In this document: positions 521 through 5,600 of the stretch, piece after piece
Position numbering within the stretch: position 1 is the stretch's first letter
Layout: each line of letters begins with the position of its first letter
Source: Prevotella sp.
GTDB lineage: Bacteria; Bacteroidota; Bacteroidia; Bacteroidales; Bacteroidaceae
Direction: 5' to 3'
NCBI GenBank assembly: GCA_017474485.1
Contig: JAFVHO010000086.1
Location: 1 to 36,117, forward strand
Length of the DNA: 36,117 nucleotides
Made by a program: the position numbers and the translations under genes
Notes under the pieces: generated by a model
What the model was told of the DNA's origin: nothing
The model's database searches: none
Seen by the model: the letters and a program-made list of their open reading frames with translations, nothing else

Positions 521-954
521 TGGTCAATAATTGATAAAAAGTTTCTTAAAAACTTGGAAGTTTCAGAAACTTTTCCTAATATGTATAACATAACAATACT
601 ATGACTGCTGCGATATACATCATCAGAGCTTAAAGAAATTATAATTTTCTAGAGAACTGCAAAATATTGGCAGAAAAAAGTGAGAAAATCATTCAATTTT
701 CATTTGAAATTCATCGTAAATCAGTATAATATTTAGCAGAAAATCTAAAAACTAGTGACATATGACATAAAATAGATTTATCCTATTAAATTTCAAAATG
801 TTACAAAATTACTTAGTGACATAAAACCGACATAGAACTGACATAAAAGCGACATAATAGTGACATTATTGCATATAATAAGCAAGTAATGGGTGCATAG
901 TAAGCTACCAGATACAAAGATATTGGGTTACTACTTGAAAGACTATGAGTAGTT

Positions 955-976
955 GTTCAATTCTCTAGAGAATTCA
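955..976. repeat. Palindrome copy 1 (AATTCTCTAGAGAATT core)
   Basis: A perfect 16-bp palindrome at 959-974 inside a 22-bp segment that recurs exactly at 1020-1041. It lies between the two mirrored arrays. A dyad of this size is typical of a dimeric DNA-binding protein site. Confidence 0.8.
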
Positions 977-1019
977 AGCGTTAGTAGGCCTATAACGATT
1001 GAGAAGATTAGTGCTAGCA

Positions 1020-1041
1020 GTTCAATTCTCTAGAGAATTCA
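1020..1041. repeat. Palindrome copy 2 (AATTCTCTAGAGAATT core)
   Basis: Exact 22-bp copy of 955-976, 65 bases downstream, with the perfect palindrome at 1024-1039. The sequence between the two copies is not repeated. Confidence 0.8.
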
Positions 1042-1371
1042 TTTACGAGACATAGATTAAGGCAGTGGAAGCACTAATGACGCGATGAGCGAGCATACTA
1101 GTCATCAGTTAGCATCCATAAGAGTGGTTAAAGTGGCGACAAATTCAAGAAAATGCCATATTTATGTCGGATATATGTCACTTCTATGTCACTTTTATGT
1201 CACTAAGTGCCGCACAGAAAAACGTGTAATCATCTGAAAAACAAATAGTAGCAAAAGTATTATGTCACTATGTCATTAAAAATAAAGAAAATGGATTTGT
1301 AGCATACTGAAGTTGACAAAATCTAGATGCCGAAGGAAGTGGTACTTTTTCGAAACTTTTTGTGGAAAAAG

Positions 1372-2600: not shown

Positions 2601-5600
2601 ATGAAGCTTCTACGACTCTCCTTTCTGTTTATTATGAGCTGCTTCGGCATACTAAGTATGTCGGCCCAAACACCATCGCTGACAGGACGCGTGATGGACG
2701 GTGACACGAACGAGCCTTTGACGAGGGCTACAGCGCAGTTGTACCGCATTGGCAGGGACACGACATTTGTCGGAGGAACCTTTTCGGACGGGCAAGGTAA
2801 TTTCTCGTTAAACGCCAACAGGACCGGCACCTACCTGCTACGCATCTCGTTCCTTGGTTATAAGACATCTGAGCAGCGCGTCAACCTGACAGTTGGCCAT
2901 ACGCAGACGCTCGGCAAAATAGAGATGACGCCTGACGCCATGCAACTGGACGAGGCTGTGGTGACGGCCAATCTGCCCAAGATGATTATCAAGGACGATA
3001 CGGTGGTGTATAATGCCGATGCCTATCGTGTGCCTGAGGGATCGGTCATCGAGGCGCTGGTAGAGGCTCTGCCTGGTGCCAAGATTGATGATGACGGTAA
3101 AATCAGCATTAACGGAAAGGACGTGAAGCGCTTCAAACTGGACGGACGTGACTTCATGACGGGCAACAACGATGCCGTGATGAAAAACCTGCCCTCGTAT
3201 GTTATTGACCAGGTGAAGGCTTACGACGAGAAGAGCGACCTGAGCCGTCTGACAAACATTGACGACGGTAACGACGACTTCGTGCTGGAGTTTGTGACCA
3301 AGCGTAGTGCCAGAAAAGGATTGCAGGCCAATCCAGACATCGGTTATGGTACAGACCACCGCTATGGCATCCGACTGACAGCCATGAAACCCTTTGGTGA
3401 CGTACGCTATACGTTTATGGGCAATGCCAACAACGTGAACGACCGTAACTTCAGTGGACGAGGGGGACGAGGACGAGGCAACGGGCAGGGACAGCGCGAA
3501 ACGAAGACTGGCGCACTGGACATCAGTTACGAGAAGCAGAACAAGCTGAAACTGAGCGGTCGAGTCACATGGAATCATGGCGATACCGACAACTGGAACC
3601 GCACAGGCTCGGAGAGTTTCGTCAACACGCGTGGTGGCGCCTTCTCGAACAGTATCAGCCAGAGCTACTCACGTAACAACAGTTGGACGGGTAACATGAA
3701 CCTGCAGTGGACCATTAATCCCCTGACAACCCTGTCGTTCCGTCCTGACGTCAGCTTCTCAACCAACGACAGCAGGAGTTTCTCAACCTCGGCCTCATTC
3801 AACAGGAATCCTTTCGACTATGTCACTAATCCTTTGAGTGATGAAGGATTGGCAGCGTTAGACAACGACTCATTAGTTGTCAACAGCCGCCAGAACAAAT
3901 CGCTGAGCTATGGCGAGAACAAGAACATCAATGCACAATTACAACTACATCGCAGATTGGGAAACAACGGTAGGAATATCGCCCTGACCGGCAATTTCAG
4001 ATATAGCGACGGCAACAACAAGAATGCCAGCCTTTCAGCTGTACACCTGTATCAGCAGAAAAACATCTGGGGCGGAGACTCCACCTATCAGACCAACCGC
4101 TATACCCTTTCTGACAACGACAACCTAAGCTACTCGCTGGGAGTCACCTATACGGAACCGCTGCTGACATTCAAGGCGAAAGAACAAGAGACGCCTGCTG
4201 ACGGACAACGGCAACGAGGCCCCTTCGGACGCAACCAGCCGCGTGGATTCGGACAAATGGGCGTGTTCCTGCAACTGAACTATCGCTACGAATACAGTCA
4301 CCAGAAAAACGACCCTGCCACTTACGATTTTCCCAACTATTCGGATGCTGCCTTTGCAGAAGTCTTGCAGGATTATCGCGACTGGACAGCCTTGTTCGGC
4401 TATCTGGACAACCCTTACGAGAGTTACCTCAGCAACGACCTGAGCCGCTATTCAGAGCGCACGGAGTATAACCACAGCATCGAAGTGCAGTTGCGCTACG
4501 TCCGCGAAAAGATCAATATGAATGCAGGTATCACTATCCTACCCCAGCGTTCACACTTCATCCAGCAATACTTGGGACGTCCTGTTGACACCGTGCGAAC
4601 GGTAACCAACATATCGCCAACACTGAACATGCGCTATCGTTTCAACCAACAAACTAACCTGCAGGTACAGTTCCGTGGGCAGACACAGCAGCCAAATATC
4701 ACACAACTGCTTGACATCTACGACGATACGAACCCGCTGAGCATCACAATGGGTAATCCGGGACTGAAGCCTTCCTTCAACTCAAACCTCCGTGTTAATT
4801 TCCAAATGATGCGACAGCCAAAACTCGTCACAGACAGTCTTGGATTCCAAGTACCGAAAAATCAGCGCAACTGGAGTTTCAACTCGAACGCAGGATGGAC
4901 GGTCACCAGCAATAGCATCGGTAATATCGTAACCTATAACGAGACGACTGGTGGACGCATATCACGACCAGAAAACATCAACGGCAACTGGAACGCCAAC
5001 TTCGGCATGGGCTTCACCATCGGACTGGACACGCTGAACAGATGGGACATCACGGGCTCTATCAATGCCACTTACTCGCACCGCGTGGGCTATGTCAACC
5101 TGAACCGTACGGCCACTCCTGACCGTAACGTCACGCATACCTACAATGTAAATCCATCGATATCACTCAGCTTCCGTAACAGGTGGCTCAGCTTCTCGCT
5201 GAACGGACGTACAACTTACGCACGTACAGACAACCGTCTACAGGCATCTAACAACCTGACAACATGGAACTTCCAGTATGGTGGTAATACGAAGATTACG
5301 TTCCCATGGGGTTCGAATCTCTCTACCGATTTCCACATGTACAGTAAACGAGGCTATGCCGATGAAACCCTGAACACCAATGAACTGCTTTGGAATGCAC
5401 AGCTATCGCACAGCTTCCTACGCGGAAAGGTGTTGACGGTGATGTTGCAATGGTACGACATCCTGCATGAGCAAACCAATTTCTCACGTACTGTAAACGC
5501 CAATGGCTGGCGCGATCAAGAGGTCAACGCCATTACCTCATACGCGATGGTGCACGTCAGTTATCGCATGAACTTCTTCGGAGGTCGCAACGGAGGTGGT

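Follow-up and report, generated by a model that had tools for sequence, protein, structure and literature searches.

Iteron plasmid origins carry helically phased direct repeats and an IHF/HU bend site beside the initiator gene. The mirrored element described here was found in the window, i.e. the whole stretch of 36,117 nucleotides of Prevotella sp. DNA that was analysed, and it resembles such origins in its phased direct repeats and bend site beside a putative initiator gene. It differs in being chromosomal, in having two mirrored arms, in being associated with a ring-helicase-type rather than a RepA-type protein, and in occurring also as solo copies.

The origins of SaPI and PICI elements have two iteron sets around a central region, beside the gene of a self-loading helicase, according to two papers (PMC6092414; PMC7581432). 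Two iteron sets also flank a centre here, both in the 45 copies of the element and in 58 of 91 helicase upstream regions, and the helicase domain of the linked protein matches the VapE-like chain 7pds (E 9.6e-12), a chain named as similar to D. nodosus vapE; sequence comparison brought up no other solved structure. The PICI/SaPI origin has an AT-rich centre and lies immediately 3′ of the rep gene. Here, however, mean GC is 0.40 in the centre, 0.33 in the arrays and 0.24 in the outer spacers, and the site is upstream of the gene in all 16 linked copies. Because of these differences in centre and position, the element is not classed as a PICI origin. It also departs from the islands in its inverted arrays with an exact 11-bp step, its palindromes in the centre and its scattered solo copies, and island genes, which in PICIs and SaPIs include those for integrase and phage interference, were not seen in the neighbour clusters, most of the recurrent ones in helicase loci being unannotated.

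The BT4734-like family of archaeo-eukaryotic primases is fused to VirE/VapE-type helicases, and the linked proteins match both PF08800 and PF05272. The literature searched, which lay mostly outside subscription journals, yielded no report of a cis site for the family.

Organization of the mirrored element

In the window, five GACAT units on the left start at 818, 829, 840, 851 and 862, and four TATGTC units on the right start at 1163, 1174, 1185 and 1196, in both cases at exact 11-bp steps. The outer doublets begin at 757/764 on the left and at 1261/1269 on the right. The inner arms (811–857 and 1162–1208) match at 87% over 47 bases, in agreement with the 41 of 47 positions reported by the first-pass annotation, and a longer arm pair of 57 nt is complementary at 82%. 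No open reading frame of at least 80 amino acids is present inside the element stretch in the window. A motif-free detector of mirrored 11-bp arrays was positive in one of 79 windows slid along the 36-kb sequence and in none of 200 dinucleotide shuffles, and it gave no signal for the element at other periods among 7–16. The mirrored GACATA arrays, the outer pairs and the gene-free character that the annotation had described are thus real.

The 16-bp palindrome AATTCTCTAGAGAATT occurs twice in the centre (Table 1). Conserved sequence continues to the left of the arrays, beginning at about position 592; this extension is common to several solo copies and is lacking in the linked copy. Outside 592–1290 the proportion of invariant columns drops to 6–8%. 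In locus L036, TTCTCTAGAGAA lies just 5′ of an HU-like gene. Elsewhere in the window, an open frame on the minus strand of positions 1–520 runs off the left edge and resembles the end of a transposase by eye, and positions 1–405 gave no Pfam match. A short AT-rich repeat at 130–190 has many matches in related genomes and is similar to a dispersed promoter-region repeat.

Table 1. Positions in the window of the solo element and its parts.
Feature	Position	Strand	Remark
Whole solo element	592–1290	.	aligns at 80–84% with the G238 C21 and C16 copies; also with the G000 copies
Left extension, which includes a single diverged TTCTCTAGAGAA-like palindrome (643–656)	643–750	.	corresponds to the HU-side flank in helicase-linked copies
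Left outer doublet GACATAtGACATA	756–769	+	all 16 columns invariant across six copies
Left AT-rich spacer	771–814	.	IHF/HU-like bend site in 63 of 88 arms over the copies
Left array, five GACATA units of 11 bp	815–866	+	
Central palindrome 1, AATTCTCTAGAGAATT	959–974	.	
Central palindrome 2	1024–1039	.	65 bp from palindrome 1
Right array, four inverted units	1163–1201	-	
Right AT-rich spacer	1209–1258	.	
Right outer doublet	1261–1274	-	

After collapsing duplicates, 96 element matches gave 45 distinct mirrored copies. These share a plan of outer doublet, AT-rich spacer, 3–8 iterons and, usually, central palindromes, followed by the mirror image, with the arms pointing inwards. Of 90 arms, 82 have a recognisable doublet, and the distance from its second unit to the first iteron is 54–56 bp (32 arms), 65–67 bp (48 arms) or 77–78 bp (two arms), which is approximately 5, 6 or 7 steps of 11 bp. 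The spacer has an IHF/HU-like bend site in 63 of 88 arms, compared with 19.7 expected from shuffles that preserved base content only; the call allows at most one mismatch to the IHF consensus WATCAANNNNTTR. The TWTCA core of the bend site is mostly at two positions 11 bp apart. Palindromes of the AATTCTCTAGAGAATT type number two per centre in 26 copies, one in 11 and three in one, and are absent from seven; 27 of 28 pairs are 65 bp apart. Other palindromes recur in centres that lack this type, e.g. three ATTCCCACGTTGGGAAT-like words about 22 bp apart by eye. In one copy (L033:5285–5426, G000:C134) the central 65-bp unit is tandemly duplicated, which gives three palindromes at an exact 65-bp step.

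The linked helicase gene and the repeat word

The first-pass annotation had proposed a search for a shared neighbouring gene, and neighbour clustering reveals one. A single gene family adjoins 16 of the 45 copies and is transcribed away from the copy in every case, whereas any other neighbour family is found beside three copies at most. The linked gene starts 109–257 bp from the array; at L092 it is in two pieces. The Pfam domains of the protein are BT4734-like_N, VapE-like_dom and DUF3874. PF08800 (E 4e-33 or better) and PF05272 are above gathering score in the three linked proteins tested, as well as in one Bacteroides relative, and DUF3874 is slightly below cut-off in two of the three. Searches of PHROGs with relatives returned helicases, primases and a weak clamp-loader match, and NCBIfam has no model for the gene. 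The family is matched in 273 of 398 same-genus genomes and is annotated only as BT4734/BF3469 or VapE-like. Matches in phage and plasmid collections are all below 60% identity, and a scan of viral contigs with the helicase protein confirmed no relative. In view of the wide occurrence in the genus and the low identity of the phage and plasmid matches, the site is unlikely to be left over from a single phage or plasmid that was lost. In the genome of the window, the helicase genes sit at contig starts and their upstream regions are therefore unreadable.

Motif I of the AEP superfamily has two acidic residues, according to PMC5862659. The primase-like domain of the linked family differs, as its motif I segment reads VVIEVN or similar (E-V-N) and has no acidic pair; with the motif placed by eye, the second acid is N or S in every row printed of a 96-protein alignment. 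Since the acidic pair is seemingly replaced, priming may be lost in this family.

An HU-like (HU-HIG) gene is present within 33 of 98 helicase stretches, a rough count based on one query protein and varied upstream lengths, with one place present twice among the positives (L036, L204). On a Bacteroides plasmid, too, an HU-HIG gene lies a short distance upstream of a gene of the BT4734 family. Together with the phased bend-like sites, the HU-like gene suggests that DNA is bent in a complex of helicase and HU-like protein.

The plan is found upstream of divergent helicase genes with different repeat words. Genes approximately 65–73% identical have upstream doublets, 11-bp arrays and paired palindromes with words of the CTACAT, CTACAC or CTACT type. 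The 58 positive upstream regions among 91 derive from 93 stretches, 60 of them positive, in which two places are present twice; none of 60 shuffled stretches was positive. With period 11 the detector was positive in 53 of 85 stretches and with the double period of 22 in 21 of 85, and periods 7–10, 12–16 and 21 gave at most two of 85. Of the 68 distinct genes that are at least 58% identical, 55 were positive, compared with three of 23 below 58%; in some of these 23 the plan can be made out by eye but has fewer units (L314, L326). No signal was obtained from five Bacteroides or faecal-phage relatives.

The word type follows the helicase protein tree, with three changes on 56 leaves (shuffled mean 24.6, minimum 18), the word labels having been drawn from words chosen after inspection. 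The tree has 90 leaves, of which 32 have no word and two have rare words; when the latter two are included there are five changes on 58 leaves (shuffled minimum 19). The strict GACATA array is present in 14 of 17 genomes with a helicase match of at least 78%, compared with six of 381 others (p 1.1e-18), and at a 77% cut the figures are 15 of 20 and five of 378. Of the three exceptions, G193 and G296 do have GACATA arrays upstream on inspection (L206, L215). G018 and G366 have mirrored arrays, yet their best listed helicases are only 68% and 66% identical. Within the protein, the DUF3874 segment has the highest ratio of between-type to within-type divergence (0.62), followed by residues 301–420 (0.56), and the helicase core is nearly invariant (0.04 between, 0.12 within). 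In SaPI Rep it is the C-terminal domain that recognises the origin, according to PMC7581432.

Solo copies and their distribution

When flanks of at least 800 bp are required, the 45 copies comprise 16 helicase-linked, 25 solo (the window copy included) and four unassignable copies. In the genome of the window, further copies of the mirrored element, compared over 631 bp, are found on contig C165 (85%) and on C134 near 57 kb (83–85%) and near 64 kb (diverged). Matches occur in six of 100 relatives' genomes searched, with the own genome counted. The units thus recur in relatives, as the first-pass annotation had proposed to check: the array pattern is present in 20 of 398 same-genus genomes, compared with one of 398 for a reversed control pattern, although G020, G231 and G412 matched on one strand only, probably by chance. 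Among the named-genome matches listed, many are Prevotella records with both arms, and a large part are from rumen or from sheep or deer gut, judging from their titles. Also among the matches listed are Cloacimonetes-group genomes (L080, L084, L085, L101, L119, L127 and others) with many 11-bp GACATA arrays, which are unmirrored within the stretch examined.

CTACAT-type arrays are present in 37 of 398 genomes. Six such loci comprise four full mirrored elements (L336, L345, L355, L362), a half element (L334) and another arrangement (L337), and the helicase gene is absent from all six 3-kb stretches. The complete genome G024 (L334, L389, L390) has at least ten half elements scattered over one chromosome; these consist of three CTACAT units and a distant doublet or single unit, with one arm only in those inspected.

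The motifs of the solo copies appear to be retained. Across five solos from G000 and G238, invariant columns make up 85 of 89 within motifs and 371 of 549 elsewhere (p 1.7e-9); the motif mask was taken from the window copy, a choice that leans slightly towards conservation. Solo copies are 84–88% identical to each other and 85–87% identical to the linked copy.

No target duplication and no clean empty site were found among five solos tried, whose counterpart flanks are rearranged, replaced or at contig ends. In G123 the counterpart of the right flank of the window matches only from position 1354 and is without the element, and the left flank is unmatched. Next to the G123 counterpart of the gene on the right in the window, the place where the element would lie holds a small inverted repeat that is hairpin-like and unrelated (reverse complement of L254 at approximately 3500–3620, G123:C30). 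The flanks of the C165 and C134 copies are on different contigs in relatives, and recombination between copies may therefore have moved them. At the G123 counterpart of the G000 C165 solo site (L255 at approximately 3785–4160, G123:C28) there is another kind of mirrored element, whose words are of the ACCCTACACT type and whose long inverted ends are nearly perfect, and its left-end sequence is also found beside the G000 solo (L032 at approximately 3390–3412). This place may be an insertion hot spot, or one element may have been replaced by another. Neither an integrase-type gene nor an excised form was observed, and when neighbours were clustered in 21 helicase loci no integrase-like cluster recurred, most of the recurrent clusters being unannotated.

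Possible functions of the element

From these sequence comparisons, the arrays are very probably the cognate cis site of the chromosomal VapE-type helicase. As the repeat word shifts from one helicase lineage to another within a constant plan, the site is probably where the helicase is loaded or where replication starts. That the element is the cognate site of the BT4734-like/VapE-type helicase with a loading or origin-like role, the window holding a solo copy without the gene, is proposed with moderate confidence; the status of a working origin is reached by reasoning, and the whole statement is accordingly held less firmly than its cis-site part. Helicase subunits would occupy the iterons along a single face of the helix, with the C-terminal DUF3874 domain perhaps making the contacts, and the phased iterons fit the cooperative protein binding suggested in the first-pass annotation. 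The HU-like protein would bend the AT-rich spacer and so bring the outer doublet into the complex, and the two opposed arrays could load two helicase rings and lead to DNA opening, as has been proposed for satellite-phage origins. Solo copies would be bound in trans by a helicase encoded elsewhere in the genome, which would keep their motifs under selection. As to the replication or partition site also suggested at first, the replication type is plausible, but a partition gene is absent among the recurrent neighbours. Against a cognate helicase site with an origin-like role count the few positives below 58% identity, the lack of any among the Bacteroides and faecal-phage relatives, the centre that is not AT-rich, the seeming replacement of primase motif I, the G018 and G366 arrays without a close helicase, the lack of an integrase-type gene or excised form and the unreadable upstream regions of the helicase genes in the genome of the window.

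Perhaps the helicase or its HU-like partner acts on the arrays as on an operator or chromosome-organising site, where it would regulate the helicase and HU promoters, which are divergent, and would act at solo copies on nearby genes or on the folding of the chromosome, without a start of replication. Linked copies do lie between helicase and HU-like genes in several loci, and the GC content of the centre and the apparent loss of motif I are as this explanation would have it. The genes adjoining ten solo or other copies tested are unrelated housekeeping or surface genes, and thus show no mobile cargo, which is in its favour, but also no common regulated function; no neighbour function is common to the solo copies. 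Moreover, a two-armed design of 500 bp with doublets, bend sites and phased palindromes exceeds the needs of an operator, and we consider this explanation unlikely. Still less probable is that the arrays are the ends of a MITE-like non-autonomous element moved by a transposase or recombinase that reads the iterons, with the helicase link secondary. Copies are dispersed at different places in related genomes, the terminal structure is mirrored, and the palindromes could serve as recombination sites. On the other hand, no target duplication was found, nor a common terminal repeat at solo ends for which two copies could be compared, the repeat word tracks the helicase tree and, unlike the situation with insertion sequences and MITEs, no transposase family recurs beside the copies in the neighbour clusters. 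The early view that this is not a simple transposon end is supported. A large structured RNA, also mentioned at first, is very improbable indeed. Predicted folding is strong (z -7.9), but the opposite strand folds equally (z -8.1), as expected of any inverted repeat. Arm–arm pairs show three compensatory and 23 broken cells of 360, the two arms of a copy differ in unit number in 29 of 44 cases, and Rfam gave no match at gathering threshold in the window.

The reading of the element as a helicase-loading or origin-like site can be extended, although we regard the extension as doubtful: a VapE-type helicase encoded in the genome, together with its HU-like partner, would load or fire at several scattered mirrored-iteron sites, the solo copies would be new non-autonomous elements that owe their spread to an initiator helicase and not to a transposase, and several systems with different words would coexist in a genome like compatibility groups.

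The element supplies a likely DNA target for a helicase family that is widespread in the chromosomes of this genus. The words that switch with protein lineage provide a natural series by which a recognition code can be directly tested. If the solo copies are active, these chromosomes would carry extra sites of helicase loading or replication start.
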